From positions 1-27,950 of the IMG/VR virus record IMGVR_UViG_3300048592_001403: a stretch of 27,950 nt of DNA; one strand, written 5' to 3'. Origin of the DNA: a virus. This document shows positions 9,871 to 27,950 of the stretch, one piece after another. The translations under genes were made by a program, and so were the position numbers. The notes below the pieces were generated by a model that worked only from the letters and a program-made list of their open reading frames with translations, was not told the DNA's origin and searched no databases. How positions within the stretch are numbered: position 1 is the stretch's first letter; each line of letters starts with the position of its first letter.

Positions 9871-9871
9871 C

Positions 9872-10648: not shown

Positions 10649-12351
10649 CCATCAAGACAAGACGAGGGGCGATTTACGCCCGCTATTCATCGGATCTGCA
10701 AAACCCCCGAAGCATTGGGGATCAGGTCGTGCTCTGCCGCGAACACGCGGCACGCATGGGCATTACGATCAGAGAGGTCTATTCCGACCAAGCCAAATCA
10801 GGCGGGTCGCTTCATGGCCGCGACGGGGTGCAGGAGATGATCCTCGCCGCGAAGCAGAAGGACTTCGATGTTCTGGTGGTCGAGAGCCTTGACCGCCTTG
10901 CACGCGATCAGGCTGACCTTGCCACGACCTTCAGGCAACTCAAGTTCGCGGGCGTCGAAATCGAGCAGGTGAACGGCGGGAAAGCGGACGCCCTGCAGAT
11001 TGGTGTCCACGGTCTGCTCGGTTCCCAATACCTCCTGCAACTCGGAGAAAAGACCAAGCGCGGAATGGCGGGCAATATCCGTGAGGGCCTGAGCGCCGGG
11101 GGCAAGTCCTATGGCTACCGCCCGGTGAAATGGGAGCCGGGCGAACTTGAGATCGACGAGGCCGAGGCGGCAGTCGTGCGCCGTATCTTCGATCTTTACA
11201 TCGCTGGAACATGCCCACGTTCGATTGCTGGCCTGCTCAACAGCGAGGGCGTCCCTGCCCCGCGCGGATCGAAGTGGAACGCCAGCACCATCAACGGCAA
11301 CGGCCAGCGCGGCTGTGGCATCCTTCGCAATCCGCTCTACTCCGGCGTCCGCATCTGGAACCGGGTCCGCATGGTCAAGGACCCGGACACGGGCAACAGG
11401 GTCAGCCGCCCGAACCCCGAAAGCGAATGGCGGATCAGCGAGGTTCCCGCCCTTGCCATCTTGAGCAGGGAGACTTTTGAGGCCGCACAGCAGATCAAAG
11501 CCGCCCGTTCGCACGCATACACCGCTCGCGAGGTTCTGCCCCGGAAGCAGCATCTTCTTTCCGGTTTGCTCCAGTGCGGTTGTTGCGGCTCTGGATTGTC
11601 CCTCCACGGCACCACAAAGGGCCACCGCCGCGTCGGTTGCAGCCGCCGCAAGGAAAGCCGCTCTTGCGCGAATAGCAGCCGCTACTACCTCGACGAGATC
11701 GAGGAAATGGTTCTCGTCAACCTCAAGAAAGTCCTAGCAGACCCAAAGGCGCTCCGGGCCTACGTTGACGAATACCAAAAGACGATGCGGGAGCTTTCGC
11801 GCAGCGCCAGCAACAATCGGGATGCACTCGAAAGGAAGCTGGCCGACATCAAGGGGCGGCAGCGCCGCCTCCGCGACCTTTACGAGCGGGGCGTCGAGGA
11901 TGACGCCGACGAGACAGCCAAGCGGCTCAACGAGCTTTCCGCTCAGGCGCGGGAAACCGAGCAGGAGCTTGAACAGGCCCGCCTAGCGGTGCCCAAGATC
12001 GAACTGCACCCACAGGCCATCGAGGCCTACAAGCGGGATATTTCGGCTCTGGCCTCACGGCTCAATCGGCTCCAAGAGGCCGATCCTGCCGCGTTGGAGC
12101 CGTTCAGAAGACTGGTGGAACGGGTCATCGTCCTTCCCGGCCATCCGACTGAAATCGAAGTCAAAGGACGCCTTGGGGCGCTGACCGTCGCGCCTGAGCG
12201 AGTGGTGATATCTATGGTAGCGGGAGAGCGAATTTCTCCCAAGCAACCACAACAGGATCAATTGGTTACGTTCTTCGAAAAGCCCATGACGCGCCTCCAC
12301 AGGAGTGCTGCCAATGGCAACAAACGGAAAGCGGGCAGGACGGCTGCCTGA
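10645..12351 (+). CDS. Large serine recombinase 1 (site-specific integrase)
   Basis: 568 aa; GGAGG at 10633-10637. The resolvase domain is at residues 1-160, with catalytic S15 in AIYARYSSD and the DRLARD motif. A recombinase domain follows (GLSAGGKSYGYRP, LNSEGVPAPRGSKW), then a zinc ribbon (CGCCGSG ... GCS....SCAN) and a coiled coil (about 380-470). It would cut and rejoin att sites through a phosphoserine intermediate. Up to VAGE (525-528) the C-terminus matches that of recombinase 2. The last 40 residues then differ completely, exactly where the tRNA-derived repeat ends. I read this as the original tail, encoded by antisense tRNA, having been replaced by DNA of element 2 when that inserted. 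The catalytic domains look intact. Confidence 0.95.
   Translation: MTIKTRRGAIYARYSSDLQNPRSIGDQVVLCREHAARMGITIREVYSDQAKSGGSLHGRDGVQEMILAAKQKDFDVLVVESLDRLARDQADLATTFRQLKFAGVEIEQVNGGKADALQIGVHGLLGSQYLLQLGEKTKRGMAGNIREGLSAGGKSYGYRPVKWEPGELEIDEAEAAVVRRIFDLYIAGTCPRSIAGLLNSEGVPAPRGSKWNASTINGNGQRGCGILRNPLYSGVRIWNRVRMVKDPDTGNRVSRPNPESEWRISEVPALAILSRETFEAAQQIKAARSHAYTAREVLPRKQHLLSGLLQCGCCGSGLSLHGTTKGHRRVGCSRRKESRSCANSSRYYLDEIEEMVLVNLKKVLADPKALRAYVDEYQKTMRELSRSASNNRDALERKLADIKGRQRRLRDLYERGVEDDADETAKRLNELSAQARETEQELEQARLAVPKIELHPQAIEAYKRDISALASRLNRLQEADPAALEPFRRLVERVIVLPGHPTEIEVKGRLGALTVAPERVVISMVAGERISPKQPQQDQLVTFFEKPMTRLHRSAANGNKRKAGRTAA
12215..12228. repeat. 14-bp att core at the element 1 / element 2 junction
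   Basis: TGGTAGCGGGAGAG is identical to 27907-27920 in the same orientation, with mismatches on both flanks. In the right copy it is the complement of the last 14 nt of a tRNA, CCA included. Here the rest of the tRNA is absent, as expected for the left att site of an integrated element. Confidence 0.7.
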
Positions 12352-12868
12352 AGAAAATGCCGCCGCGATGGGGTATCGCGGCGGCAATAGTGGACTGCTC
12401 AACATTGCGGATTGGAGCAGTCCACTTGTAGCTCGCACATCTGCGTCTGACAAGCCCCGCGAGAATGCGCGGAGCGGTGAAAACACTTCCGGGACGGGCG
12501 CCGCAGCCGCCTTCCTGCGCGACCTCATGGAGCTTGGCCGCTACCGCTACGGCGGGCCGAGCTTTATCTTCCCTGATACCGAGGAGGGGCGCACGCACGC
12601 GCTCATCGCCCTTCGCTACGCGATCCGCGTCGACCACTCATTCACGCTGGTAGCACGGGCAGTCTCATGGGCCGCTCTCTGGTCCCCTTGGATGCTGATC
12701 CACACGCCGGGGCGGTGGCAGGAGGCGGATCTTAAATCGGCCATCTCTGCCGCCTTGCAGGTGCCGCCATCGTTTAATAGCGCAGCGGACAGCGCGTCGG
12801 TGGGAATTACATATGAGGAGTGGAAGGCGATCCGGCCCCGCCGCCTGACGCCGGGGGTGCAGCAATGA
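12314..12868 (+). CDS. Hypothetical protein of the element-specific family, copy in element 2
   Basis: 184 aa from ATG 12314 (AGGAG at 12301-12305); the first codons overlap the replaced tail of recombinase 1. Residues about 65-125 hold RYGGPSFIFPDTEEGRTHAL and LWSPWM, in the order of RYGGEDYVLPDD and CPWM in gene 1-1056. The C-terminus (SVGITYEEWKAIRP) resembles the LGLT......TIG segment. I do not recognise a characterised family. It is coupled by ATGA to the next gene, a paralogue. It may belong to a replication or regulatory module of the element backbone; this is inference from position and recurrence. Confidence 0.7.
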   Translation: MATNGKRAGRLPEENAAAMGYRGGNSGLLNIADWSSPLVARTSASDKPRENARSGENTSGTGAAAAFLRDLMELGRYRYGGPSFIFPDTEEGRTHALIALRYAIRVDHSFTLVARAVSWAALWSPWMLIHTPGRWQEADLKSAISAALQVPPSFNSAADSASVGITYEEWKAIRPRRLTPGVQQ

Positions 12869-13803
12869 GCCGCCCGAAGTCGAAGGCCAAGGCCAACGCG
12901 AAAGCCGAACAGAAGCTTTGGGGCAAGGAGGCCAAGGAGCCGTCCGGGTTCGACATTGCGATCAAACGCCAGCGGGACGTGAACGTGCTTTTGGCCGACC
13001 GCCACGGCGGCACAAAGGACGATTTCGCGATGCCGGACGACGAAATGACGCGGCGCATCCTGCCAGCCGTCCTGCCCCACCACATCCGCTACGAGAACCC
13101 CGAGCGGCGCATCCTCAACTGGCTCTGCAAGCACTGCCCTTGGATGGCAGCGGAGGAGATGTGGCAGCTTGTCCGGAGTGCATTGCGCGCACAGGGACGT
13201 ATCCGGTCCGACGCGCACCTTGGGAAGCTGTTCGGCCTCAGCTACGAGGACATGCGGCGGCTCAAGATAACAACCATGCTCCCTCCCAACATGACGCGTG
13301 CGCAGGTTAGGGCAAGGTCGAAGGATGCTCTCAACGAGAGGCGGCGGAAGGCAGCCCGCGCGGCGGGCGTCAAGCCCCGCGAGGAGTACGAGGCGCAGGG
13401 CCTGAACAAGACTAAACCTTGGGTAGCGCTTGGCATCAAGAAGCGCTGGTACTTTGAACTCAAGAGGCGGGGCCAGCTTCCCGGTGCGGATGGGACTGCA
13501 CAAGTACCGTCAGACAAAGAAGGGTGTAACCCTTGTGACGTACCGAACCAGTGCAGTGCAGATATTAAGAACGACGCGGGAAGCACCGAAGCAGGGCGCG
13601 GGCTTGAAGCCGCGCCTGATCAGACGTCGGCAGAGACGGAGCGACAGGCTCCCCGAAACCGCGCCAGCGGTTTTGCGTCTCGGCGCAGCGCTAGCGAAGC
13701 CGCCTCACGCGTCCTCCTTGCAACGGTTCAGCGCGCACCATCCCTTATGAGGGTTCGGATCATCGCAACAGCAATCAAGGTAACAGCCACGGAGGTAGCA
13801 TGA
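12865..13803 (+). CDS. Paralogue of gene 1-1056 (CPWM motif, HTH-like tail)
   Basis: 312 aa, ATGA-coupled on both sides. Features in order: a lysine-rich N-terminus, FAMPDD, RRILNWLCKHCPWM (around residues 85-98), GLSYEDMRRLKITTM, a basic helix (ALNERRRKAARAAG), and KTKPWVALGIKKRWYF, which reads as a helix-turn-helix. The last quarter repeats AGRGLEAAP from gene 1-1056 and the AAACCGC hairpin, and otherwise is low-complexity. The likeness to gene 1-1056 marks both as backbone genes. A DNA-binding protein is likely; whether for replication, excision or transcription is not visible. Confidence 0.75.
   Translation: MSRPKSKAKANAKAEQKLWGKEAKEPSGFDIAIKRQRDVNVLLADRHGGTKDDFAMPDDEMTRRILPAVLPHHIRYENPERRILNWLCKHCPWMAAEEMWQLVRSALRAQGRIRSDAHLGKLFGLSYEDMRRLKITTMLPPNMTRAQVRARSKDALNERRRKAARAAGVKPREEYEAQGLNKTKPWVALGIKKRWYFELKRRGQLPGADGTAQVPSDKEGCNPCDVPNQCSADIKNDAGSTEAGRGLEAAPDQTSAETERQAPRNRASGFASRRSASEAASRVLLATVQRAPSLMRVRIIATAIKVTATEVA
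13656..13673 (+). terminator. Second copy of the shared 3' hairpin
   Basis: AAACCGC (13656-13662) and GCGGTTT (13667-13673) around GCCA, continuing TTTTGCG, as at 969-987. It lies inside the reading frame of the gene at 12865, so termination is doubtful. Confidence 0.3.
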
Positions 13804-14252
13804 ACACGGCAAATGTCATCACGGTGGACTTCAGCAGGGCGCGCGCAGACGCGCCCATGACGGAGCGGGGCGGGGCAACGATCCACCGCCTGACGCCAGA
13901 GCTTCACCCTGACAGCATCATCGCAATCCGCGTCAGTGAACTCACGCGGCTCCTGCATCACCGCTACCCGGGCGGAGATCACAGCAGCACAGACGCGATC
14001 GACATCATCCGCGTCGTCCTCGACCACTTCGCCAATCTTCGCAATGGCGCGCCACACATTACCGCATGGCTGGCGCAGCACTCCCCGCAGCAGGCGCCGC
14101 GCGAGGAAATCGCAGCCGAGTGGCCGCGCGGGAGGTATTGGAGGGCAGAACCCCTTGGCGTCCACCTTGGGCTTCTGGCTGATGAGGCCCACGCATGTGA
14201 AATCACCACGATCGGGTCGCGCACCTCGCGGCGGAAGTGGAAGCAAGCATGA
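13800..14252 (+). CDS. Hypothetical protein, short member of the element-specific family
   Basis: 150 aa; GGAGG four bases before the ATG, which overlaps the previous stop. It contains RYPGGDHSSTDAIDI, ITAWLAQHSPQQ and the LGLLADEAHACEITTIG segment, matching the order RYGG...D, LNWIAARCPW and LGLT...VTTIG of gene 1-1056. It lacks the basic helix and HTH-like tail. Three such genes in a row, all overlapping, suggest a multi-subunit or diverged tandem set. Function unknown. Confidence 0.7.
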   Translation: MNTANVITVDFSRARADAPMTERGGATIHRLTPELHPDSIIAIRVSELTRLLHHRYPGGDHSSTDAIDIIRVVLDHFANLRNGAPHITAWLAQHSPQQAPREEIAAEWPRGRYWRAEPLGVHLGLLADEAHACEITTIGSRTSRRKWKQA

Positions 14253-14350
14253 TAGGAGGCAATAGGAGGCCCGTGGGCGGGCATCTCGCCCGACCCTGCC
14301 CCAACACCACGCAGACCCTGAGCGCCGAAATTCGACCGCTCAAAATCGCG

Positions 14351-14369
14351 GCGCGGGTTCTTCCCGCGC
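14351..14369 (+). promoter_or_regulatory. Perfect 7-bp hairpin between operons
   Basis: GCGCGGG (14351-14357), loop TTCTT, CCCGCGC (14363-14369), without a T-run. It lies in the 171-bp gap between 14252 and 14424, which also has a tandem ATAGGAGGC repeat (about 14251-14269). It may be a weak terminator or a leader structure for the next gene. The gap holds no gene. Confidence 0.35.
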
Positions 14370-14423
14370 AGAGGAGAAGGGGTGCCATCGGCTCCGAATT
14401 AGATGAATGAAACGGGTTAGATC

Positions 14424-14894
14424 ATGGCAAACGATCCAGCAGTTCAGACTGTGTTCCGGTTGGAACGATTGGTCGCAGTCCTTGAGCAAGGCCGCGCGCC
14501 AGACCCGGAAGATACTGCTCTCTTGGCTGATGCCGTCCGGGCGGTGAGGTCGGGAAAGATTTCCTCTCTTGATGCGGCACTCGGGTTGGCAGCGGGCCGG
14601 GGCCAACCGCCCTTGTCGAGGCGATTGGCAATCCACACGCGTAACCTCCACCTCCGTGCAGCAGCCGAGCTTCTGGCGCCCAGTGCAAGTATATCGACAC
14701 GAGCCGAAAAGCTCCTTCAGGCCGACGAGCGCTATCGGTCGGGTCGTTGGCAGCGGGATCGCCTCTGCTCCGACTGCCCGCCTGACATCGTCGGCAGTGT
14801 GGACGGTCATTTGTGGGAGGCTCGCCATTCACATGGTTACATTCCTATTTCACAACGCGCACTGGAATGCATACTCACGAAGGGAGATCGCTGA
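14424..14894 (+). CDS. Hypothetical protein, 156 aa
   Basis: Not recognised. A helical N-terminal half (VFRLERLVAVLEQGRAPDPED; DALLADAVRAV-like pattern) is followed by a basic segment with RRLAIHTRNLHLRAAAELL and ALLQADERYRSGRWQ-type helices. One CSDC motif is near residue 115. No signal peptide or membrane segment. It precedes the coiled-coil gene at 14962 by 67 bp and may share its transcript, which seems to end at the hairpin at 16061-16092. The ribosome binding site is weak. Confidence 0.55.
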   Translation: MANDPAVQTVFRLERLVAVLEQGRAPDPEDTALLADAVRAVRSGKISSLDAALGLAAGRGQPPLSRRLAIHTRNLHLRAAAELLAPSASISTRAEKLLQADERYRSGRWQRDRLCSDCPPDIVGSVDGHLWEARHSHGYIPISQRALECILTKGDR

Positions 14895-14961
14895 GGTCCT
14901 TTCGTGGAATACTCTTCATTGAGATGGCATAGTGTCTCCACAGCTTGGAGAAGAAGTCTCA

Positions 14962-15990
14962 ATGTTGGCACAAATGAAAGAAGGCCTCGCGCGCATCCTT
15001 TCAACCGACGCATCGTCTCCGCTTGATCGGCTTCCCGCCGATGCTCGCTCCGTCCTGCGTCATTTGATGGAACGCCAGTCGGACCTGACCGCAGCCACTC
15101 TTGCGCTCACCGAAAGGCACGAAGAAACCCGGGTTGCTGCGCAGCGCCTGAGGCAGCAGATCGAAGTCATGGCTCATCCCGTCCGCGCACGCGAACATGG
15201 AAGGCATCCGCTCGCCAGTGATGATCCTCGCCTGCAGGTCGAACGCGGTCGTTTGCAGGCTCTTCAATCTGAGTTGGCCGAAATGCAGGCCTCGCTGTCC
15301 GCTCGCTCGGAAAAGCTCGCTCGTCTCAGTCAATTCATCAACCGTTTGACGAGATACGTTGAGAGCCTGCAAGGTCACAAGGTCGTTCCCGCAAGTTCCC
15401 CCACTCCCCGCATGTCGAGATCTGACCCTCGGCAAGCGGTAGAACAGGCCCGGCGGGAGATCGCAAGGCTGCGCGCTGACCTTCGCGAAATCGAAGCCGC
15501 ACCCCATCCCTCGGATGTTGTGAAGATGCGCGCTCGCCAAGCCATCGAGGCGTTGGCAGCGCGAGGACGGCCAGATGTTGACGTCATGGTTGCGCACGGG
15601 GAAACCGCCCCGGCTTGGCCGACGCTCTCGCTTCGCGTCAACCTTTCGGCGTCGGTCGCCAATCCCGAGGCGGCCCACCCAATCATTGGCTTAGGTCACG
15701 CGCAGCATGCGGACACCTTGGCCCTCATGGCATGGCTGCACCAAGACGCCTTCATCGCCAAGCTTGAAGCAGAGATTGAAGAGCAGTCCGACGATGCGAG
15801 GGCTTTGACGGACGAAGCTCGTGCTAGCCGGGTCGCAGAGATCAAGTCAGCCATCCTCGCCGCTGAGCGCGAAGAGGAAGCTGTTATCCGGTTGACCGAG
15901 CGGGATGGCAGCGAGTTAGAGAGGCGGGTCGACGCCGATCCGCGAGCCGTTCTGTCTATCAGTTCGGAGGCACCAGCACCGACAGAGTGA
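14962..15990 (+). CDS. Hypothetical coiled-coil protein
   Basis: 342 aa from ATG 14962 (GGAG at 14947-14950); a GTG at 14932 would add ten residues. Long heptad-like helices lie at about residues 30-140 (SDLTAATLALTERHEETRVA, LQALQSELAEMQASLSARSE) and 160-190, then a compact middle with WPTLSLRVNLSASVANP and a second helical stretch rich in E and R near 270-320. This architecture suits a structural or DNA-tethering protein. I cannot assign a family. It lies between backbone genes and the nuclease cargo, so either role is open. Confidence 0.65.
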   Translation: MLAQMKEGLARILSTDASSPLDRLPADARSVLRHLMERQSDLTAATLALTERHEETRVAAQRLRQQIEVMAHPVRAREHGRHPLASDDPRLQVERGRLQALQSELAEMQASLSARSEKLARLSQFINRLTRYVESLQGHKVVPASSPTPRMSRSDPRQAVEQARREIARLRADLREIEAAPHPSDVVKMRARQAIEALAARGRPDVDVMVAHGETAPAWPTLSLRVNLSASVANPEAAHPIIGLGHAQHADTLALMAWLHQDAFIAKLEAEIEEQSDDARALTDEARASRVAEIKSAILAAEREEEAVIRLTERDGSELERRVDADPRAVLSISSEAPAPTE

Positions 15991-16060
15991 GGGCGGGTCC
16001 CGGCCATACGACTATAACTGCCGACGCTGCTGAGTGCGGGCGCGCCGGGTGGCGGCAGTG

Positions 16061-16092: not shown

Positions 16093-16154
16093 TTCCAAGC
16101 AGGTCTGTCTGTGGCAGACTTGAAGTGTGCAGCAGCAGTGGCAATACTGTGCGT

Positions 16155-16772: not shown

Positions 16773-16790
16773 CGTCCATTGTGGGAATTG

Positions 16791-17633
16791 ATGAAGACTA
16801 TCACTTGGAACATGAGACGTGCCAGTGCAGGACATGCTAGCTGGCAAGTAGTGCGCGAACTGGACCCCGACATTGCGTTCCTTCAGGAGGTCGTTGATGT
16901 TCCGCAGGACATAACTTCCTGTTACTCAGTAGCGAAGGCGCATGCTGTCAAGCAGTCGGGGGAGCCGCAGAAGTTCTTGAATGATATTCTCAGCCGAATT
17001 CCACTCACCCATCCTCCATTGATCAAGTCCAAACTCGAATGGGTAAACAGCGAGAGAGTGTTTTTCAGTGGAAACATGCTCTTTCGCTCCGCTCAGATTG
17101 CTCGCTCTAATGTTGTCTTTGTGTGCGTCTATAGCCCGGCTTGGCCCGTTGCGGAGCAGAGACTTAAGGGGATTGATGTCAGCGGAGTGTAATTGGCTCT
17201 CAATCCAAATGTCTGGTGTACTGAGATCATATGGAAGCTGCTTGCAGACTTCGATGAGTTTGCCGATTATGAATGGATAATAGGCGGCGACTTCAATAGC
17301 TCCGAGACGTTCGACTATATGTGGCCCGGTGGGCCAAGGGGCAACGCACAGATAATGGAGAGGTTTGAAGCTCTAGGGCTACGTGACGCACTTCGAGAAA
17401 AACAGCGAGCGCTTGTGCCAACCTTTAAGAACCCATGAAATGGGAAAGCCATTCATCAACTCGACAAACTGTACATGAGTAGCGCATTGATGAGGGGGTT
17501 GCTCTCATGCGAGACAGGTTCGCATAATCGGGTATTTACCAACAAGCTCTCAGATCACCGCCCGATAATTGCGGAGGTCGACGTAGCGCGTGCAGAAGCT
17601 GCTCCTGCGCCGCAAAGACCGCTCTCTGTTTAG
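16791..17633 (+). pseudogene. Endonuclease/exonuclease/phosphatase (EEP) family protein with two in-frame stops
   Basis: A complete EEP domain is readable in one frame: KTITWNMRR (N7), IAFLQEV (E33), IIGGDFNSSETF, QLDKLYMS and the closing SDHRPIIAEV. The frame is cut by TAA at 17190-17192 and TGA at 17436-17438, with no frameshift between. Both look like single-base changes: the TGA falls where NP(W)NG is expected. The metal-binding and catalytic residues lie in three separate pieces, so no single product would be active without read-through. The frame ends in TAG 17631-17633, overlapping the convergent stop of the GIY-YIG gene. Confidence 0.8.
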
Positions 17634-18337
17634 ATCATCGCAGTCCCGGCCCGCTTGAAGTCACTAAGCCGTACCCAATGGTTCTTGCCTCGTTCGGCCC
17701 GCCAGAACCACCAACCATAGACCGGGCGTCCTATTGCAGCGATCGCCGCTGACCTCAGAGACGCGTGCTTCGTTCCCTTGAACCATACGGTTCCGTCCTT
17801 GCGCAGTCTAGCGGTGAATGTCTCCCCTTTGTGGGTAGCTCGAAGCCTCGCACCATTCGGAAAAAACTTGAGAGCCTTGCTGCCGTTGTCGGTGACTAAT
17901 CTCTGCTTTCTCGCGGCCATCTTTCGTCCTAGCAGCAGCGCCATCTCGCCGGATTGCTTCTCCCGGATCGCCTTCCGGATATGAGGGAGCATGTTCGTGG
18001 ACGCCTTCACATTCCCTCTCAATCTGTTTCCCTTGGGCAGCGTGACGCGCAAGATGAGCGCTTCAATCTCCTTGATATGTTCGTCGTTCACCGTCAGGAA
18101 GATGGAGAAGCGATCCCACTTCTGCTTGTGTCGATCTCGTAGATGAGCCTTAAGCCTACCGGATAAACTCTTGGCAAGGCCAATGTAGTACAATCGATCT
18201 CGTCGATAGAGCGTGTAGATGCCAGAGTTCCGTCCTACGAATTTTCTTATGATGTCCGGATGCCTTGCCAGAAGCTCGCTGGAAACGTTTTCAAGGTGCA
18301 ACCGAACTAATGCAGTCCGCTTCTGTTTCTTCGCCAT
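17630..18337 (-). CDS. GIY-YIG nuclease with C-terminal RAMA-like domain
   Basis: 235 aa. The GIY-YIG motif is classical: SGIYTLYRRDRLYYIG (residues 38-53), then R61 and a glutamate near 90. Residues 130-150 are a basic linker. From 160 a RAMA-like domain follows (DGTVWFKGTKHASLRSAA, then GWWFWRA at 208-214). RAMA domains are known from restriction-modification contexts and are thought to sense modified or target DNA. It is convergent with the EEP pseudogene and divergent from the type ISP enzyme, with 278 bp between. A role as modification-dependent nuclease is plausible. No strong ribosome binding site is seen. Confidence 0.8.
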   Translation of the reverse strand: MAKKQKRTALVRLHLENVSSELLARHPDIIRKFVGRNSGIYTLYRRDRLYYIGLAKSLSGRLKAHLRDRHKQKWDRFSIFLTVNDEHIKEIEALILRVTLPKGNRLRGNVKASTNMLPHIRKAIREKQSGEMALLLGRKMAARKQRLVTDNGSKALKFFPNGARLRATHKGETFTARLRKDGTVWFKGTKHASLRSAAIAAIGRPVYGWWFWRAERGKNHWVRLSDFKRAGTAMI

Positions 18338-18615: not shown

Positions 18616-21600
18616 TTGAGCTTGCGCGATCTACTCGAAAAGTACCGGGCTGGCTCTTTATCAGAGCGCGAGAAGGGTACCTACTTTGAACGCCTAGTGA
18701 AGGTCTGGCTGGAGCATGCTCCAACGCAGAGGGTGCAGTTCAGCCGCGTGCTGATGTTTGCCGATTGGGCGAAGGAAAATCGCGCCGATCAGCGTGACAC
18801 GGGGATCGATCTTGTTGCCCAACTTGCCGACAGCCCTGACGATTGGTGCGCCATCCAGTGCAAGTTCTATCGGGAAGGCTATCGTCTCCAGAAGGCGGAT
18901 ATCGACAGCTTTTTCACAGCCTCGGGCAAGCGTCCTTTCACCCGACGCCTGATCGTTGACACTACTGGCGTGCAGTGGAGCGAACACGCGGAAGAAGCGC
19001 TGCGTGATCAGATCGTCGAGACCACCCGCGTCGGCCTCTCTGATCTGGAAGACAGCGGCATTGACTGGCACGCTTTTGCAATCACCGAGAACGTCAAGCT
19101 CCTCGACAAAAAGAAGCCTCGCCCTCATCAAGTTGCAGCGCTTGACGCGGTTAGAGAAGGACTGAAAACAGCAGACCGTGGCAAGCTGATCATGGCCTGC
19201 GGGACGGGCAAGACCTACACTGCTCTTCACATTGCTGAACAGCTCGTTGGCAAAGGCGGGCGCGTCTTGTTCCTCGTGCCATCACTTTCTCTCATGTCTC
19301 AGTCAATCCGAGAGTGGTCGATTGATGCCAACATTCCTCTACGGTCCTTCGCCGTTTGCTCCGACAGTCAGGTCGGCGTCCGCAAAGCCGCTGATGGCGA
19401 CGTGGCAGACATTGACGTTCACGACCTTGAAATTCCGGCGACGACCAAGGGTGCAACGATAGCGGCTAAAGCCACTCTTTTGGCCCCGGACAGTATGACG
19501 GTCATTTTCTCGACCTACCAGTCGATCCAAGCGATCTCCAGCGCACAACTCTCCTATGGCCTCCCGGAGTTTGATCTCATCATCTGCGATGAAGCGCATC
19601 GAACCACAGGTGTAAAGCTCGCCGATGAAGAGGAAAGTAACTTCATTCGAGTTCATGATGCAGCCTATATCAGTGGGAGGAAACGTCTTTACATGACCGC
19701 TACACCGCGCATCTTCGGAGAAGCGGTAAAGAAGACAGCGGACGAAGCCAATGCTGTTCTATGCTCTATGGACGATGAGAGCCTGTTCGGTGAGACACTT
19801 TTCACGCGCAACTTCTCATGGGCGGTGCAGAACGGTCTACTGACCGATTATAAGGTCATTGTGCTTGCGGTCGATGAGGAAGCCGTTAGCGCTGGCGTGC
19901 AGCGCCTCTTGGCGGATGAGAACAGTGAGTTAAAGCTTGACGACGCCACTAAGATTGTTGGTTGTTACAAGGCCCTCACCAAGGCTGATCTGAAGTCGGA
20001 TGTTGCCGGGGATACTGGTCCGATGCGTCGTGCCTTGGCATTCGCCAAGGACATCAGGCGTTCCAAGCTTGTGGAGACGGAGTTTGCCCGTGTTGCACAA
20101 GAGTGGCGTAATACGTTGGACGAGAAGGTAGCTGCAACAATCCCGCCGCTGGAAGTGAAAGTACAGCATGTCGACGGAGGTTTCAGCGCGCACGCCCGCA
20201 ACGAGCGCTTGGCGTGGTTAAAGGACGTGCATGCAGACACAGATACCTGTCGCATCCTAACCAACGCACGCTGCCTCTCTGAAGGCGTAGATGTGCCAGC
20301 GCTCGATGCAATTTTGTTCCTCCATCCAAGAAAGTCGCAGATTGACGTAGTGCAGTCGGTTGGGCGTGTAATGCGCCGCGCCGATGGCAAGAAGATGGGT
20401 TATGTAATTCTGCCCGTAGCTGTTCCAGCAGGTAAGGCCCCTGAGGAGGCGCTAGATGACAACGAAAAATATCGCGTCGTCTGGCAGATACTAAACGCAC
20501 TTCGGGCGCATGATGATCGTCTAGATGCGACGATAAACAAGATAGACCTCGGTGTTGATCCCGATGACCGCATCGAAATCATTGCCGTCACAAACCAGAT
20601 GCCCACGCGATCGGAGCCGAAGAAGACTGGCATCGACCTTGGGCAAGGCGGCGGAGCTGGTGACGCGGAACCCGGGGACGAGCAGCCAGAGCGGCCGCGC
20701 AAAAGCGGACAGAGTACTTCATCTCAGCTTGATTTTCAGTTTGACGAGTTTGCAAAAGCTATTATGGCGCGGATCGTTAAGCGCTGTGGCACTCGTACCT
20801 ATTGGGAAGAGTGGGCCAAGGATGTTGCGCGCATTGCTGAAGTCCATGTTACACGCATCCGTGCCGCCGTTAAAGCAGCGGGATCAGCAGAACGAAGAGC
20901 ATTTGACGCGTTCCTCGCGGAAATTCGTGATGACCTGAATGAGAGCATCACTGAAGAAGAAGCCATTGAAATGCTCGCCCAACATCTCATAACGCGTCCA
21001 GTGTTTGAGGCGCTTTTCGAGGGCTACAGTTTTGCCTCCAACAACCCGGTTTCAAAAGCATTGCAGGCCGTTCTAGATGTACTCGATCGCCAGCATTTGG
21101 AGAAGGAGGCCGAGGCTCTTCAGAAGTTCTACGCAAGCGTCAAGATGCGAGCACAAGGTGTTGATGATGCAACTGCGAAGCAGAAGATCATCGTCGAGCT
21201 TTACGACAAGTTTTTCAAAGCGGCGTTTCCTAAGCTCACAGCCCGATTGGGTATCGTCTACACGCCAGTAGAAGTGGTGGACTTTATCATCAAGTCTGTT
21301 GATGAAGCCCTGCAAGCCGAGTTTGGTCAGACGCTTGGCAGTGAAGGCGTCCACATTATTGATCCTTTCGTTGGGACGGGCACTTTCATCACTCGGCTGC
21401 TGCAATCGGGCCTAATTAGGCCTGAGCAAATGGCACACAAATATAGACATGAAATCCACGCCAACGATATCGTGTTGCTGGCTTACTATATCGCGGCCAT
21501 AAATATCGAGGCGGTTTACCACGAGCAGATGGGTGGGGAGTATGAGCCATTCCCCGGCATCTGCCTCACCGATACATTTCAACTATACGAGCAGGAGCGT

Positions 21601-23571
21601 GATCTTGTTAGTGACATGATGGCGGTTAACTCCAACCGACGAACTCGGCAGAAAGAGCTCGATATTCGCGTCATTATTGGTAACCCGCCCTATTCTGTTG
21701 GCCAAGGAAGCGCCAACGACAATGCCGCCAACATTGAATATCCGAGGTTGGATAACCGCATTCGAGAAACCTATGCGGCACGGACAGATGCGGTGAGTAA
21801 GAACTCTCTCTATGATAGCTACATTCGTGGAATACGTTGGGCGAGTGATCGTATTGGCGACAGGGGCGTTATAGGCTTTGTTACCAACGCCGGGTGGATA
21901 GACACGGCAGTCGCTAACGGTTTGCGAAGGTGCCTAGAAGAGGAGTTTTCAAGCTTGTATGTTGTCCATCTAAGGGGCAACGCACGCACGTCAGGCGAAC
22001 AACGGCGCAAAGAGAAAGACAATGTATTTGGCCAAGGTAGCCGTACTCCTGTAGCCATTGCTATTTTGGTGAAGAACCCTGTCTCCGCTGACCATTGCTC
22101 CATTCGGTTTTACGATATTGGCGACTACCTCTCCAAGGAGCAGAAGCTCGCTCTCACCGCTCGCGCAGGGAGTATTAATGGCCTTACAGCAGCCAATTCT
22201 TGGTCGACTATAACTCCCGATGAACACGGAGATTGGCTAAACCAGCGCGACAGCAGTTTTGATGAGTTCATTCCGCTTGGTGATAAGGACAAGACTACGA
22301 AGGGCGCACTTTTCTCAAACTATTCTGCCGGCTTAAAAACTCAGCGCGACGCGTGGGCTTATAATTTCAGTCGGTCAGCGCTGTCTGAAAACATGCAGAG
22401 AATGATTACGTCCTATGACCAAGAGTTAGAACGATTTAACGCTGCGCACGTCGGAGCCGATCGAAAGGCTAGAGGTGAAGCCGTTGACGATTTCGTTGAT
22501 GCTGATGCAAGAAGGATTAGCTGGACGCGCGCATTGAAGGCGGACATAGCGAAGAACAAGAAATTCTCTTTCGACGCTGCGTCTATGACTTCAAGTCTTT
22601 ATAGGCCGTTCTCTAGGCAATGGCTCTATTACAGCCGTAACTTTAATGAGATGGTCTACCAAATGCCGCGTCTCTTCCCGATAGGAGAAAGCGCTGCAGA
22701 AAATCGACTTATCTGCATTCCCGGGAATGGCACGCTCGATAGTTTTTCAACTCTGATGACTTCAGCAATACCGGATCTGAATATGTCTCCAACAGGAGGA
22801 ACGCAGTGCTTCCCTCGCTATCTCTATGATATTGTTGAGGCTCATGAAAATGAGATGGAGCAAGGTGAATTACTGGAAGTCCCTCAGGCAGGTCGAATAG
22901 TTCGCCGGGATGCCATCACAGATGCCGGGCTGATGCACTTTGCAGATGCCTATCCGGCCGAAGTGATTAGCAAGGATGATGTGTTCTATTACGTCTATGG
23001 TTTGCTGCACTCCGAGGAGTATCGGGAACTCTATGCTGATAACCTCGCCAAGCAGTTGCCGCGTATCCCCCTAATGAAGCGCGCTGAAGATTTCCGCGCC
23101 TACGTGACTGCGGGTCGTCTACTGGGCGATCTACATGTCAATTTCGCGGACGCTGAGCCATACCCGGTGACGATCAAAGAAGGTGACTTGCGGCTCGCCA
23201 ATATCGCTGATCCCTTTTCCTATTTCCGTGTCGAGAAGATGAAGTTCGGGGGAAAGCGCCCCAACCAAGACAAAAAGACGGTGATCTACAATTCCAAAAT
23301 TACCATTACGGGTATCCCGTTGGACGCATATGACTATGTGGTCAACGGGAAGCCAGCGTTGGAATGGGTCATGGAGCGTCAATGTGTGAAGACCGACCCG
23401 GCGAGCGGGATAGTGAATGACGCCAATCGCTATGCGGTTGAGACGGTGGGTGACCCCGCATATCCATTTGAGCTATTCTGTCGGGTCATCACTGTCAGTC
23501 TTGAGACATTGAAGATTGTTAGGGGCTTGCCGCCCCTTGATGTCAGTGGCGCAGTACCAAACGCGGGGTGA
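18616..23571 (+). CDS. Type ISP restriction-modification enzyme (LlaGI-like)
   Basis: 1651 aa from a TTG start with GGGGG seven bases upstream. Single-chain enzyme with, in order: an Mrr-like nuclease (GTYFERL at 21-27, D65 in GIDLVAQ, QCK at 81-83); a superfamily 2 helicase/translocase with Walker A ACGTGKT (195-201), DEAH (325-328), TAT (361-363) and QSVGRVMRR (580-588); a gamma-class N6-adenine methyltransferase with DPFVGTGTF (916-924) and NPPY (1023-1026); and a C-terminal target recognition region. LlaGI-type enzymes are near 1570 aa. They methylate one strand of an asymmetric site and cut after translocation and collision. All core motifs are present, so it may be active. GC content appears lower than in the flanking backbone genes, fitting acquisition as cargo. 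Confidence 0.95.
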   Translation: MSLRDLLEKYRAGSLSEREKGTYFERLVKVWLEHAPTQRVQFSRVLMFADWAKENRADQRDTGIDLVAQLADSPDDWCAIQCKFYREGYRLQKADIDSFFTASGKRPFTRRLIVDTTGVQWSEHAEEALRDQIVETTRVGLSDLEDSGIDWHAFAITENVKLLDKKKPRPHQVAALDAVREGLKTADRGKLIMACGTGKTYTALHIAEQLVGKGGRVLFLVPSLSLMSQSIREWSIDANIPLRSFAVCSDSQVGVRKAADGDVADIDVHDLEIPATTKGATIAAKATLLAPDSMTVIFSTYQSIQAISSAQLSYGLPEFDLIICDEAHRTTGVKLADEEESNFIRVHDAAYISGRKRLYMTATPRIFGEAVKKTADEANAVLCSMDDESLFGETLFTRNFSWAVQNGLLTDYKVIVLAVDEEAVSAGVQRLLADENSELKLDDATKIVGCYKALTKADLKSDVAGDTGPMRRALAFAKDIRRSKLVETEFARVAQEWRNTLDEKVAATIPPLEVKVQHVDGGFSAHARNERLAWLKDVHADTDTCRILTNARCLSEGVDVPALDAILFLHPRKSQIDVVQSVGRVMRRADGKKMGYVILPVAVPAGKAPEEALDDNEKYRVVWQILNALRAHDDRLDATINKIDLGVDPDDRIEIIAVTNQMPTRSEPKKTGIDLGQGGGAGDAEPGDEQPERPRKSGQSTSSQLDFQFDEFAKAIMARIVKRCGTRTYWEEWAKDVARIAEVHVTRIRAAVKAAGSAERRAFDAFLAEIRDDLNESITEEEAIEMLAQHLITRPVFEALFEGYSFASNNPVSKALQAVLDVLDRQHLEKEAEALQKFYASVKMRAQGVDDATAKQKIIVELYDKFFKAAFPKLTARLGIVYTPVEVVDFIIKSVDEALQAEFGQTLGSEGVHIIDPFVGTGTFITRLLQSGLIRPEQMAHKYRHEIHANDIVLLAYYIAAINIEAVYHEQMGGEYEPFPGICLTDTFQLYEQERDLVSDMMAVNSNRRTRQKELDIRVIIGNPPYSVGQGSANDNAANIEYPRLDNRIRETYAARTDAVSKNSLYDSYIRGIRWASDRIGDRGVIGFVTNAGWIDTAVANGLRRCLEEEFSSLYVVHLRGNARTSGEQRRKEKDNVFGQGSRTPVAIAILVKNPVSADHCSIRFYDIGDYLSKEQKLALTARAGSINGLTAANSWSTITPDEHGDWLNQRDSSFDEFIPLGDKDKTTKGALFSNYSAGLKTQRDAWAYNFSRSALSENMQRMITSYDQELERFNAAHVGADRKARGEAVDDFVDADARRISWTRALKADIAKNKKFSFDAASMTSSLYRPFSRQWLYYSRNFNEMVYQMPRLFPIGESAAENRLICIPGNGTLDSFSTLMTSAIPDLNMSPTGGTQCFPRYLYDIVEAHENEMEQGELLEVPQAGRIVRRDAITDAGLMHFADAYPAEVISKDDVFYYVYGLLHSEEYRELYADNLAKQLPRIPLMKRAEDFRAYVTAGRLLGDLHVNFADAEPYPVTIKEGDLRLANIADPFSYFRVEKMKFGGKRPNQDKKTVIYNSKITITGIPLDAYDYVVNGKPALEWVMERQCVKTDPASGIVNDANRYAVETVGDPAYPFELFCRVITVSLETLKIVRGLPPLDVSGAVPNAG

Positions 23572-23628
23572 AGGCGGGAGTTGGTTGGTGTAATGGTGTC
23601 ACCGCAATGGCAGAGGTAAGTCAGATTG

Positions 23629-24525
23629 TTAGATATCTAGATCATCTCTAGCTTTGATGGTGGAAATGAAGGTCTGCCATTCGCTCGTAGAAGCCACACC
23701 GCTCGCAGATGCCCTGTTTACCGCGGAGGCTATGTCAGAAGGTATTCTAATCGTCAATAGACGGGCTTCCTCTTGCTCTTCGCCCTTCGTGACTTTGAGC
23801 TTCAACATCTTCATTGCTTCGGTCAGGCGGTTGGTCAGTTGGACCTCTAGATTTGAACCCACTCGCTGCTTGAACTCTTGCCTTAGCCAGTCGTTCAGAT
23901 AAGTATCATTGTTGTAAGTGGTCCCGTAATCTCCATCTCTTGATACTATAATGACATTCTTTTTCGATCTCTTGGCGCAATCTACGATCCATTCCCAATT
24001 GACCGCGTCTCCAATCGAGGTGTCATCCTTCTTCCTCGGAGGATATCCAAGGAACCAACGTTTCCAAGCAAGCCGTCGGATGGAGTGGCGGCTCGGTTTT
24101 GTGCGAGATAGATGGCAGTCACCGTCAGATTTGAAAAGGCGCTGGACACATTTGTACACTTCATCATTCTTCAAGGGATCTAGAAGTATCTTTTCAATAC
24201 GGTTTCGTATTCGCTTCTGTTGAGTGTCGATCTCTGATACTGCCTTCTTTATCAACTCGGCTGGCCTAGCCTCAATAAGAATTGGGGGAAACTGCTTGGC
24301 ATCACCATTCGCGTTTTTAATGCTCTTGATTGTCTCCATAATCACCTTTTGCCGGTGTTTCATGAACTCCATTTGAACTTGGCTGCCCGTGATGATCAAG
24401 GCATGGTTTTGATCGATGAACTGAAGTTGCCGTTTGGCGGGTTCGCCAGACGCCATTCTATAGAAATCGAGAAGAACATTTGTGTCTATGAAGACAAGCC
24501 ATCCGGTATCTGCTCCCCGTGCCAC
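23629..24525 (-). CDS. PIN-domain protein (DUF4935-like)
   Basis: 298 aa from a GTG preceded by GAGGG nine bases upstream. The PIN acidic residues are visible: D14 in FIDTNVLLDFYR, E53 in QVQMEFMKHR, D173 in GDAVNWEWI, and D197/D199 in VSRDGDYG. A basic insertion (about 100-165) and a C-terminal extension (240-298) are present, as in the long PIN-like proteins of the DUF4935 type. It would be a metal-dependent ribonuclease. It is convergent with the type ISP gene, and its start overlaps the end of a broken frame at 24486-24767. No antitoxin gene is evident, so a solitary defence or toxin role is only a guess. Confidence 0.82.
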   Translation of the reverse strand: MARGADTGWLVFIDTNVLLDFYRMASGEPAKRQLQFIDQNHALIITGSQVQMEFMKHRQKVIMETIKSIKNANGDAKQFPPILIEARPAELIKKAVSEIDTQQKRIRNRIEKILLDPLKNDEVYKCVQRLFKSDGDCHLSRTKPSRHSIRRLAWKRWFLGYPPRKKDDTSIGDAVNWEWIVDCAKRSKKNVIIVSRDGDYGTTYNNDTYLNDWLRQEFKQRVGSNLEVQLTNRLTEAMKMLKLKVTKGEEQEEARLLTIRIPSDIASAVNRASASGVASTSEWQTFISTIKARDDLDI

Positions 24526-24767
24526 AGACCTAATCCCTCGTTATTCCAAGCGGGGATTACCCTAGTGAGTTTACCTGTGGGGTCAATCCACCTATCGCCG
24601 AATTGCGGGGTCTGATGAAGCGGCAACTCTGCCCGCGGCCTCCAAACCTGCTCGATGTAGAGCAGGTCATCTCCCCATGGTCGACTGCCGTTTCCATGTT
24701 GCCAAAGCGCTTCGCGCTCGGACAGAGGACTGCTAGCACCCGGTGGAGCTTGCTGTACGCTCCCGAT
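24486..24767 (-). pseudogene. Remnant of a gene upstream of the PIN gene
   Basis: A reverse-strand frame of 93 codons with protein-like sequence (for example LWQHGNGSRPWGDDLLYIEQ and the closing GLWHGEQIPDGLSS) ends in TAG, overlapping the PIN start. It has no ATG or GTG start. It is preceded in frame by a TAA (24768-24770), beyond which similarly plausible residues continue toward about 24900 (HFDANINKGANACG). I read it as a gene cut by a nonsense change or truncated. I do not recognise the family; a fortuitous open frame cannot be excluded. Confidence 0.35.
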
Positions 24768-24903
24768 TTATGGGCGCACCCCGAGATCAGTGGCCGCCGC
24801 GCTCCGCAGAGCATTGGCAGCGGAAGCGGTCCCACAGGCATTAGCACCTTTGTTGATGTTCGCATCGAAATGCTTATGACTGATTGCGATTGGAGAAGTG
24901 GTG

Positions 24904-25572
24904 ATGCGCTTTTTTCGCGGTATAGCTGTTCGGCCAGACCAAGCCGCCGAGATACGTCAGAAAATTCTTGGTTGTGGCCTTGGAGAAGGGGACGGTTGGT
25001 GGGACATGCGGCTGAGACGTCCGCCGAACAGAATAGCCTTATTTTCGAAAGACAACCTTACGACAGAGGATACTCGATCCGACGAATTGGAGGAACTGCC
25101 ATTCGTGTGTGCTTGCGGCGAATTCAATGGCGCAGCGTATTATGCTTGTTCGCACAATTGGTCAGAGCAGAACAATGTTCCGCTGATCATTGAGTTCGAT
25201 GTCGATGCTAGATCTGTGGCCTTGGATGGACGGGACTTTCTGTACAGGGCTTTTCAGGGGGGACGCCCTGAGATAGCAAGGCCCGTGCTTGTAGATTGTT
25301 TCGGTCCCAACATATTGCAGTACGTCGACCGAGCGTGGCGTTCCGACGATCAACAGTTTCGAATAGCCATGTGTGATCTTGCTATCCAAGATCCCGCTGT
25401 CATCAATGATCATTACAGGAATACGCGGGTCATTGCAGGTAGACACAAGACGGTGTTCCGCAATGCCTTCTTGATCCAACTTCCTGTGCCGGCTTCTGCG
25501 ATCATTTCTGTCCGGACTGACGTGACTTTTGAGTTTCCTGTCATCGACTATACGCTTGACGACATAGGGTGA
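24904..25572 (+). CDS. Hypothetical protein, 222 aa
   Basis: Start at ATG 24904 with GGAG at 24892-24895; two GTG codons just upstream are less well placed. The sequence opens MRFFRGIAV and includes PFVCACGEF, AAYYACSHN, PLIIEFDVD and DGRDFLYRAFQGG. Order and spacing of RG, the middle tyrosines and the closing acidic residues recall ADP-ribosyltransferase-type folds, but I cannot establish this. No membrane segment. It is the last cargo gene before the recombinase leader and is divergent from the PIN gene and its broken neighbour. Confidence 0.65.
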   Translation: MRFFRGIAVRPDQAAEIRQKILGCGLGEGDGWWDMRLRRPPNRIALFSKDNLTTEDTRSDELEELPFVCACGEFNGAAYYACSHNWSEQNNVPLIIEFDVDARSVALDGRDFLYRAFQGGRPEIARPVLVDCFGPNILQYVDRAWRSDDQQFRIAMCDLAIQDPAVINDHYRNTRVIAGRHKTVFRNAFLIQLPVPASAIISVRTDVTFEFPVIDYTLDDIG

Positions 25573-25943
25573 TGGGTAGAGTGGTCACTCGCCTCTCCCA
25601 TTTTCCCAAGGGACCGTACTCGTCCGGCAGTCTGCGGGGCCGCGGCCTCGCGATGTTCGCACGTTTTATTTCGTTTCCGAAAGCAGTTTTGATTTGGAGC
25701 CGCGCCAGCCTAGGCGGCCTCACCCCTTTGCATTCAATTAAAACTTAATTTCGAAAGCCGAAAAAATTCCCGCAGTTCGGGGGCGGCGCTCCCCGCGCGT
25801 TGGTAGCCGTGATACGGTCCCTACGGCGACATTGTCATTGGCGTGGAAAAGGTATGGTGATCTGTTTTCTCAGAAGCGAAAGAGGCGTATCTTTTCGCCT
25901 AGCTTGATTGCCCATTATTGAGGCGGGGGTCGCTGAGTTTCTT
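25573..25943. other. Gene-free region before leader RNA 2
   Basis: No gene supported. It holds an AT-rich stretch around 25737-25765 and a small hairpin (GCGAAA 25876-25881 with TTTCGC further on). It probably contains the promoter of the leader/recombinase transcript, but I cannot name clear -35 and -10 boxes. Confidence 0.4.
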
Positions 25944-26093
25944 CCCTGTTCGAACCACCCGGTGCGCGTGATTGAACGCACCGGGAACAGGGATCAGAAA
26001 GCAGCCAAGGCAGCATGCTTCGGGAATGACCCGGCTGCAGCCACCAGACCCCACGATGCAGCCTTCCGACCCTAGGCCGGAAGGCATCTAACC
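25944..26093 (+). ncRNA. Candidate structured leader RNA 2
   Basis: The 5' hairpin is strong: CCCTGTT (25944-25950) with AACAGGG (25986-25992), and inside it CCCGGTGCG (25958-25966) with CGCACCGGG (25977-25985). The conserved 66-nt block is 26028-26093. Its last hairpin pairs GCCTTCCG (26061-26068) with CGGAAGGC (26078-26085), followed by ATCTAACC. GGCTGCA (26033-26039) can also pair with TGCAGCC (26057-26063), competing with that hairpin. The counterpart pairing in leader 1 uses a 5' arm shifted by six bases, so only the last hairpin is position-conserved. The first small ORF starts 27 nt later. Confidence 0.45.
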
Positions 26094-26120
26094 TTTTGAT
26101 TTTTCAAGGGAGACACAACC

Positions 26121-26294
26121 ATGAACGCAACCGCTTTCTTGCAGGCGGGGCGAATGCGCCCGCCCGACTTTAGGGACTTTGGATGGCCCAAAGCCATGGT
26201 AAACGTGACGACGATGCGGAGGACGGCGAGCAGCGCCGGGAAATCATCCGCGCGCTCGCACGAATGCACGCGCGCCGCGATTTCAACCGGGTGA
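26121..26294 (+). CDS. Small ORF A of the second recombinase cassette, 57 aa
   Basis: ATG 26121 with GGGAG at 26108-26112. Contains PPDFRDFGWPKAMVN, aligning with APDFEEAEWPRAVVK of the ORF at 10434. The tail is longer than in the first copy and not conserved. It overlaps small ORF B over most of its length in a different frame. Confidence 0.5.
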   Translation: MNATAFLQAGRMRPPDFRDFGWPKAMVNVTTMRRTASSAGKSSARSHECTRAAISTG

Positions 26295-26338
26295 TGCGAG
26301 CCAGCCCTCGTGGAACCACGGAGGCGAAAGATGAGTGA
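26183..26338 (+). CDS. Small ORF B of the second recombinase cassette, 51 aa
   Basis: ATG 26183; its stop lies seven bases past the recombinase ATG, so the genes overlap. It shares GK..DAEDG, RALAR, AR.DFNR and TTEAK with the ORF at 10496-10648. Conservation across both cassettes in length, position and sequence argues that it is translated. A recombinase accessory or directionality factor is possible. Confidence 0.6.
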   Translation: MAQSHGKRDDDAEDGEQRREIIRALARMHARRDFNRVMRASPRGTTEAKDE

Positions 26339-27950
26339 GAAGCTGCGGGCTGCCCTTTATGCAAGGTATAGCACCGCCAACCAGTCGGAGCGGTCCTGCG
26401 GGGATCAGCTTCGTATCTGCCGGGAATATGCCAAGCGCAATGGCTACAGTATTGAGAAGGAGTTTTCCGATGAGGCCGCTTCTGGCGGCACCACCTTCGG
26501 AAGGCCAGACTTCGCTGCATTGATCGCGTTTGCTGAGAGTGGCGGATGCGACGCGATCATTGTCGAGCAACTCGACCGCTTGTCACGCGACATGGAAGAC
26601 CTCGCGGGCATCTTGAAGCGGATGCGATATTGCAATGTGCGACTGATCGAGGTCCACGGCGGCGAGGCCAGCACAGCAACGGTGGGCCTCCGTGGCCTCG
26701 TGGGGCAGCTTTTCCGAGAAGACACCGTTCACAAGACCCGGCGCGGAATGCAGGAGCGGGTCAAGGATGGCCTGTCGGCTGGCGGCAGGGCCTATGGCTA
26801 TCGCCCGGCTCCGGGCAAGCCGGGAGAGCTTGAGATTGTAGAGGCCGAGGCAGCCGTGGTGCGCCGCATCTTCAAGGAGTACATCGCAGGCCAATCCGCC
26901 AAGGCCATCGCAAAGAGCCTCAACGAGGACGGTATCCCTGCCCCGCGCGGATCGTCATGGGCGAACAACACGATCACAGGAAACGCGAACAGGAGGAGCG
27001 GCATCGTCCAGAACAAGCTTTATTGCGGCCACCTCGTTTGGAACAAGGTTCGGATGGTTCGCGATCCGGCGAGCGGCAAGCGGATTTCACGGTCGAACCC
27101 GTCCGAGCTTTGGCACCGCGCCGAGGTGCCGCACCTCGCCATCATCGACGCTGATGCCTTCGCCAAAGCACAGAGCCGGAAGGCGGAAAGCGCCCAACGC
27201 CATGCCAAGGGCGAGCGCGCGCCGCGCGTGAAGCATCTCCTTGCAGGCCTGCTTAAGTGCGGCAGCTGCGGAAAGGGAATGAGCATTCAAGGCAAGATGG
27301 GCGGCAGGCGGCGGGTTCGCTGCACCGACGCGGACAACGGCGGGCTTTGCACCAATCGGAAGCCCTACTACCTTGATGAGATCATCTCGACGGTCGTCGG
27401 TAATCTGAGGGACTGGCTGGCCGATCCGCAGGGCGTCAAGGACTACGTCGATGCCTACCTTGATGAATGGCGCGCTGCCGCCTCGCAGGCGGTTCGCGAG
27501 CGCGATCAGGTCGCCCGGAAGCTTGCCAATGCGGAACAGGGCCTATCCCGCCTTGTGGACGCGCTGGCGGCTGGCACCCTGCCTTCGGACGTGGTCGCGC
27601 CCAAGGCGCGCGAGTTGGAGGCCGAGCGCGAAAGCCTCAAGGCACGGCTCGCTATGGCCGAGGAGGCGGTGCCGAAGATCACCCCCCATCCGGGCTTGGT
27701 GCAGCAGTATTGGAAGACAATGGACGAATTGGCCGAGAACCTTGAGGCCCTGCGGGATGAAGGCCCGGAGGCATTCGAGGCGGTTCAGAAGCTGGTCGGG
27801 CTGGTAAGCGTCTCCCCCGGAAACCCGGCTAATATCAAGGTCGAGGGACGCATAATGGCGCTGATTGAGCAGAAGAAGAACGCCAAACCAAGGAAGTTGC
27901 TTGGAGTGGTAGCGGGAGAGGGACTCGAACCCCCGACCCCAGGATTATGA
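26331..27950 (+). CDS. Large serine recombinase 2 (site-specific integrase)
   Basis: 539 aa from ATG 26331 (GGAGG at 26320-26324); a GTG at 26310 is in frame but lies upstream of the ribosome binding site. Resolvase domain with S14 in ALYARYST and DRLSRD. Recombinase domain with GLSAGGRAYGYRP and LNEDGIPAPRGSSW. Zinc ribbon CGSCGKG ... RCTDADNGGLCTN. Coiled coil near 385-450. It is plainly homologous to recombinase 1 over nearly the whole length. From VVAGE (526-530) to the end (GLEPPTPGL) the codons are the antisense of a tRNA 3' half, and the TGA stop falls on T33-C34-A35 of that tRNA. The gene thus carries its own att site. Confidence 0.95.
   Translation: MSEKLRAALYARYSTANQSERSCGDQLRICREYAKRNGYSIEKEFSDEAASGGTTFGRPDFAALIAFAESGGCDAIIVEQLDRLSRDMEDLAGILKRMRYCNVRLIEVHGGEASTATVGLRGLVGQLFREDTVHKTRRGMQERVKDGLSAGGRAYGYRPAPGKPGELEIVEAEAAVVRRIFKEYIAGQSAKAIAKSLNEDGIPAPRGSSWANNTITGNANRRSGIVQNKLYCGHLVWNKVRMVRDPASGKRISRSNPSELWHRAEVPHLAIIDADAFAKAQSRKAESAQRHAKGERAPRVKHLLAGLLKCGSCGKGMSIQGKMGGRRRVRCTDADNGGLCTNRKPYYLDEIISTVVGNLRDWLADPQGVKDYVDAYLDEWRAAASQAVRERDQVARKLANAEQGLSRLVDALAAGTLPSDVVAPKARELEAERESLKARLAMAEEAVPKITPHPGLVQQYWKTMDELAENLEALRDEGPEAFEAVQKLVGLVSVSPGNPANIKVEGRIMALIEQKKNAKPRKLLGVVAGEGLEPPTPGL
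27907..27920. repeat. 14-bp att core in the tRNA 3' end
   Basis: Identical to 12215-12228. It covers tRNA positions 63-76. It marks the right att site of element 2 and presumably the target site that both recombinases use. Confidence 0.7.
27907..27950 (-). tRNA. tRNA with CAT anticodon (probably elongator Met), 3' half
   Basis: On the reverse strand positions 33-76 of a tRNA can be numbered without gaps: T33, CAT anticodon (27947-27949), AA, anticodon stem TCCTG, five-base variable loop, T arm GGGGG-TTCGAGT-CCCTC, acceptor TCCCGCT, A73 and encoded CCA ending at 27907. The anticodon stem lacks the CCC of initiator tRNA, so elongator Met or Ile with modified C34 remain. The 5' half is beyond the window. 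Confidence 0.88.

Follow-up and report, generated by a model that had tools for sequence, protein, structure and literature searches.

The 27,950-nt stretch analysed here (the window) is the entire IMG/VR viral record IMGVR_UViG_3300048592_001403. At the 3' end of a tRNA-Met(CAT) gene it most probably carries a tandem of two mobile elements, each with its own large serine recombinase gene reading through the attachment (att) site, so that integration swaps the C-terminus of the recombinase and, in a tandem, the neighbouring element supplies the tail. Counted as established in this account are the anatomy of the window, the pattern seen across the recombinase family, the three-core tandems of relatives, the selection acting on the tail at the protein level and the fused state of recombinase and tail in free phage.

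Two elements, probably in tandem, at one tRNA gene

The window contains two exact copies of the core sequence TGGTAGCGGGAGAG and no more, at 12215-12228 and 27907-27920 on the plus strand, and 100 dinucleotide shuffles contain none, which bears out the 14-nt direct repeat described in the original prediction, a reading of the letters without database searches. As also stated there, the two copies occupy the same codons of two homologous recombinase genes, in frame and near their 3' ends, the proteins being 44 % identical. Recombinase 1 (10645-12351, plus strand; 568 aa) reads SMVAGERISPK at the core and has its last codons inside element 2; recombinase 2 (26331-27950, plus strand) ends in GVVAGEGLEPPTPGL, its final codons and TGA stop falling within tRNA-Met read antisense. 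The Resolvase, Recombinase and zinc-ribbon Pfam domains all score above cut-off in both proteins, which identifies them as large serine recombinases, and the two are sisters (tree support 0.96) within a family that targets tRNA-Met(CAT). An identical AACCACGGAGGCGAA immediately precedes the start of each gene.

The right core is the 3' end of the tRNA and constitutes attR of element 2. The tRNA does run on past this copy: the 44 nt at 27907-27950 (minus strand) recur unchanged as the 3' half of intact tRNA-Met(CAT) genes at eight Bradyrhizobium loci, and ARAGORN called no tRNA gene in the window because the record stops at the anticodon. The left copy halts after its 14 bp, the sequence departing from the right copy at base 15. 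This left core joins the right half-site of element 1 to the left half-site of element 2 in a hybrid, attP-like site, an arrangement that recurs in relatives. The record opens at the ATG of its first gene and closes on a stop codon, which suggests that it was trimmed at gene borders; its left end falls inside element 1, and two of the three cores expected for a two-element tandem are present in the window.

The attachment site within the recombinase gene

A single-sequence search of genome contigs and viral contigs with recombinase 2 gave no matches, and the family was retrieved by an alignment-based scan of GTDB genomes, which yielded 80 loci, almost all labelled alphaproteobacterial. At 63 of the 80 the recombinase gene enters the 3' end of tRNA-Met(CAT) antisense and terminates in VA[GE]EG[LF]EPPTxGL or a near-identical sequence. 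The TGA stop of the tRNA-tailed recombinase is the complement of U33-C34-A35, so that the anticodon loop supplies the stop codon. Recombinases at L007, L011, L013, L015, L094 and L099 enter the tRNA in a different frame, with ends such as GSGRGT or RTPDTRIMIPLL.

Across the family, attP is located inside the 3' end of the recombinase gene. What the original prediction overlooked is that the core is within the recombinase gene family-wide, and hence that insertion exchanges the C-terminus of the protein. The replaced C-terminus is seen in the tRNA-derived end at the 63 loci, in the recombinase's own tail fused in the phage RR1-A and in the neighbour's tail encoded at 12215-12351. At junctions of a recombinase gene with the left end of a further element, the core usually lies within an inverted repeat, for example GTGGTAGCGGGAGAGCGCTACCGCC, and in most relatives the stretch of approximately 25 bp that follows the core forms a palindrome with the opposite half-site. 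A search with the att pattern over 30 genomes returned many perfect copies and few matches of the reversed control. Taking the centre of the inverted repeat as the point of exchange, we infer that crossover takes place at tRNA nt 65-66, in which case the element restores tRNA nt 66-76. The flank of attB away from the tRNA varies freely between genomes.

These features most probably form a single course of events. Each element is brought in by its own large serine recombinase, whose gene lies at the right end of the element and reads through the att site. In the circle or the phage genome the gene runs on into the element's own left end and so encodes a C-terminal tail that is conserved and, by prediction, disordered. 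When recombination takes place inside the core, the gene is cut from its own tail, and the integrated recombinase takes approximately ten residues and its stop from tRNA sequence read antisense, while the 3' end of the tRNA (nt 66-76) would be rebuilt by the inserted element. In a tandem, the upstream recombinase reads across the core into the next element downstream and gains the tail encoded at that element's left end, as at 12215-12351. The second insertion presumably used attR of the first element as attB. Tandem growth would be explained if the resident attR serves in this way, because the core and the complete half-site on the tRNA side are preserved in attR and nothing constrains the opposite flank of attB, and this offers an explanation for the pile-up of elements at tRNA-Met.

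Tandem arrays in relatives

The claim that two serine recombinase elements stand in tandem at one tRNA 3' end is upheld as the best reading by the sister relationship of the recombinases and by three-core arrays in related genomes. In Methylosinus sp. Sm6 (NZ_JAINDZ010000027, minus strand), cores at 66220, 42633 and 3566 form the full outer core-element-core-element-core pattern foreseen in the original prediction; an intact recombinase (44346-42568) reads through the core at 42633, and a second intact recombinase (5273-3531) terminates in tRNA-Met (3498-3574). Methylocapsa aurea (NZ_JQKO01000004) has cores at 15593, at 44105 after a broken recombinase and at 91007 at tRNA-Met; a search for its empty site with the left flank gave only weak 70-bp matches in the genus and none near a tRNA. 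At least four cores (73198, 95367, 110149 and 153809) are found in a Mesorhizobium metagenome-assembled genome (SAKE01000008), in an array ending at tRNA-Met, and two consecutive hybrid junctions on one contig of Nitratireductor sp. ZSWI3 imply at least three elements. In Bradyrhizobium sp. cir1 (L163:5357-5490), two cores 57 bp apart lie between the recombinase and tRNA-Met, still in frame, as the apparent scar of a lost second element. Genomes with a single element at the same site, which the original prediction had proposed to look for, are the rule (the 63 loci above); neither of the findings it had named as contradicting a tandem, namely relatives in which 12215-12351 continues the same recombinase gene with no element 2 or an element 1 with no core on its left, was therefore made.

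Conservation of the exchanged tail

The tail of recombinase 1, VAGERISPKQPQQDQLVTFFEKPMTRLHRSAANGNKRKAGRTAA, comes for the most part from the left end of element 2 (12217-12348, plus strand), in a position that matches the conserved tails of relatives. A structure model of the protein is ordered to approximately residue 510 and disordered over residues 511-568 (per-residue confidence, pLDDT, <50); the predicted disorder is as expected for an exchangeable tail.

To describe the tails of the family, the DNA after the core was translated in the recombinase frame at 125 left-end sites, which gave tails that are typically 23 or 28 aa long (e.g. VAEDRYRQSPHLPEIRYRLRLFSRLLAA and VAGVRYIARPTISEALFSYRRAA); 87 distinct ones measure 15-31 aa. 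At most of the 125 sites no recombinase gene lies upstream of the tail, so that its codons are silent when the element is integrated. In the free phage RR1-A the recombinase is fused to the tail mid-genome and ends in GGRVVAGERFEQSPQIILGRFVA, and the recombinase of Microcystis phage Mae-JY30 is likewise fused to such a tail. Since the codons are silent in the integrated state and fused in free phages, the conserved reading belongs to the circular or phage form.

Comparison of the tails gives a clear indication of selection at the protein level. Among 24 independent pairs from these 87 tails, outside the 25-bp half-site, differences at codon positions 1, 2 and 3 number 40, 41 and 87 (p 6e-7), and 58 of 133 changed codons are synonymous, vs the 26 % expected for single changes. 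The DNA differs by 18 % within the tail vs 60 % in the 60 nt past its stop, a contrast inflated by the choice of pairs according to tail similarity. Ala is the last residue of 53 of 87 tails; in the +2 frame 11 of 109 sequences end in Ala (p 2e-14), and so do 16 % of long open reading frames.

Proposed role of the tail and alternative explanations

Ala-rich ends resemble ClpXP signals, the ssrA-type tags. The strong enrichment of Ala-ended tails suggests that the viral form may carry such a tag, and that the tail may mark the circle-encoded recombinase for proteolysis, in a degron-like role, or otherwise alter its activity. Extending this idea, the tRNA might act as an integration-sensing switch, a proposal we put forward only tentatively: the integrase made from the circle would carry a C-terminal proteolysis signal, integration would swap in the tRNA-antisense end and so stabilize or redirect the enzyme, and in tandems each newcomer would re-tag the integrase behind it, so that only the tRNA-adjacent element would keep the integrated-state enzyme.

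The alternative that survives best, although it too is rather doubtful, is that the swap is a switch of directionality and not of stability, the tailed form being competent for integration and the tRNA-ended form for excision. In its favour, a swapped C-terminus alters the activity of the Mx8 integrase (PMC4701971, PMC6070905). The exchange is also coupled exactly to the integration state. On the other hand, the tail is a short stretch of varying length with predicted disorder, and serine integrases normally rely on a separate directionality factor. Given the resemblance of the Ala-rich ends to ClpXP signals, a stability switch would be our preferred guess.

It is improbable that the conserved tail is mere att-site DNA, that is, a recombinase-binding half-site open in frame by chance. 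Such a view would fit the palindrome which, in most relatives, the first approximately 25 bp past the core form with the opposite half-site, but it is at third codon positions that changes accumulate outside this half-site, sequence similarity drops almost to the random level past the stop codon, and Ala ends are far above both controls. We regard as very improbable a single element with an internally duplicated recombinase gene, the 14-bp identity having been kept from an ancestor that ended at the tRNA. The sister relationship of the recombinases is compatible with this, as are the 80-nt leader 5' of recombinase 1 (10335-10414, plus strand), which is 71 % like that 5' of recombinase 2 (26020-26099, plus strand), and the distant relationship (26 %) of the first genes of both elements; however, a recent duplication would have left far more than 44 % identity, the contents differ (a capsid module vs a restriction island), and independent arrays of two or three elements with unrelated contents occur in other genomes. 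Hardly credible is a small separate peptide started at the core, for although every left end has an NTG codon from the base before TGGTA, the DNA 5' of left ends is unrelated between sites, so that no common ribosome site is possible, and the fused frame is seen in phages and tandems.

Several points nevertheless weigh against the reading of the window as a tandem with exchanged tails, besides the choice of tail pairs mentioned above. Because the record begins inside element 1, it shows neither the third core expected at the left nor the host, and the model requires a serine integrase to accept attR as attB. The window's own tail, at 44 aa, departs from the RYRxSP consensus, and no clear palindrome of the kind found in relatives is present at the left core (2/10 pairs), so that the family-wide selection on tails cannot be extended to this one; a hairpin at this core is weakly better than in shuffles (z -2.1). 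Finally, some attP-type left ends in Roseibium, Stappia and Nitratireductor have no recombinase nearby. Those at L140-L141, L142-L144 and L137-L139 carry the conserved tail without an adjoining family recombinase, and may mark elements that lack an integrase or that extend beyond the stretch examined.

Gene content of the two elements

Element 1 (1-12225, plus strand), its left part cut off by the record start, encodes according to PHROG matches an unknown protein followed by a capsid and packaging module (1431-10210, plus strand), which comprises, all on the plus strand, TerS (1431-1973), TerL (1979-3832), a portal protein (5752-7167), a protease-capsid fusion (7877-9637), a head-tail adaptor (9640-9870) and a decoration protein (9872-10210), and by recombinase 1. 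PHROG matches revealed no tail genes in the part inside the record, and the same module is found in the tail-less L275, a 12.2-kb relative with a primase and a tyrosine integrase, which is like a capsid-forming satellite. The stretch 1-10210, in which capsid and packaging genes without tail genes adjoin a serine recombinase, looks like such a satellite with a new type of integrase; among the capsid relatives of element 1 (L267-L281), this serine recombinase family is absent. Like capsid-forming phage-inducible chromosomal islands (PICIs), element 1 has packaging, portal, capsid, adaptor and integrase genes and no tail genes. Unlike them, it has a serine and not a tyrosine recombinase, and no primase, replicase or AlpA-type regulator was recognized in its recorded part, the left end lying outside the record.

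Element 2 (12226-27917, plus strand) extends over 15.7 kb between two presumed crossover points. Its ends were set at the core centre, palindromic attP sites serving as the reference. It has no capsid gene. Its cargo, identified by Pfam and PADLOC, is a Type ISP restriction-modification enzyme encoded as a single polypeptide of 1651 aa (18616-23571, plus strand), beside which lies a gene for a PIN-domain protein (23629-24525); recombinase 2 completes the element. A RAMA-like protein is encoded near the Type ISP gene, at 17630-18337, and a frame at 16779-17438 resembles an endonuclease/exonuclease/phosphatase protein, is broken by an in-frame stop at approximately 17190 and has no Pfam match. 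The first gene of element 1 (1-1056) is 26-31 % like three adjacent genes at the left end of element 2 (12305-12868, 12868-13803 and 13800-14252); no family was recognized for these genes, and no close relatives of the first gene of element 2 were found in viral contigs.

Comparison with known systems

Across the family, integration rewrites the integrase's own C-terminal end, the tail and the stop codon both coming from a tRNA, and selection at the protein level acts on a form that exists in the circle only; the case can be tested by sequence. The old question of how temperate elements tell the integrated from the free state thereby becomes accessible to half-life and recombination assays. 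For annotation, the C-termini assigned to these integrases depend on the integration state, and an integrase cloned from a prophage would be the tRNA-tailed form. No description of a tRNA-supplied end and stop, a selected Ala-ended tail or a neighbour-supplied tail was found among open-licence papers, which is not proof of novelty.

The closest parallels are found in elements whose integration alters one of their own coding genes. In the streptococcal integrative and conjugative elements at rumA, the att site lies in a serine integrase gene and integration changes the length and sequence of the C-terminus (PMC4701971), as here. Their target is a protein gene that is itself modified, whereas here the tRNA gives tail and stop and stays intact, and the accessible text on them describes no conserved Ala-ended or neighbour-supplied tail. 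In Myxococcus phage Mx8, attP is likewise inside the integrase gene, and integration (IntP to IntR) swaps 112 C-terminal residues for 13 and alters activity (PMC4701971, PMC6070905); that enzyme is a tyrosine recombinase of a single phage type. The mycobacteriophages of the BPs type also have attP inside a coding gene, and there integration removes an ssrA-like tag (PMC4557955). The switched gene in those phages is the immunity repressor and here it is the recombinase, and the degradation tag is proven there and suggested from sequence here.

With regard to the target, the active Paracoccus phage vB_PamS_Pami6 has a serine recombinase at tRNA-Met(CAT), as in the present family; the available part of that description (PMC6536676) makes no mention of a C-terminal exchange. 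The Islander survey of 2014 dealt with tyrosine integrases only, noted that no serine integrase was known to use a tRNA gene as its target and listed 125 tandems at tRNA genes in which each island has an integrase and a tRNA fragment (PMC4383910). The tandems described here share this arrangement of an integrase and a tRNA fragment for each element, and differ in that the recombinases are serine enzymes here and tyrosine enzymes there.

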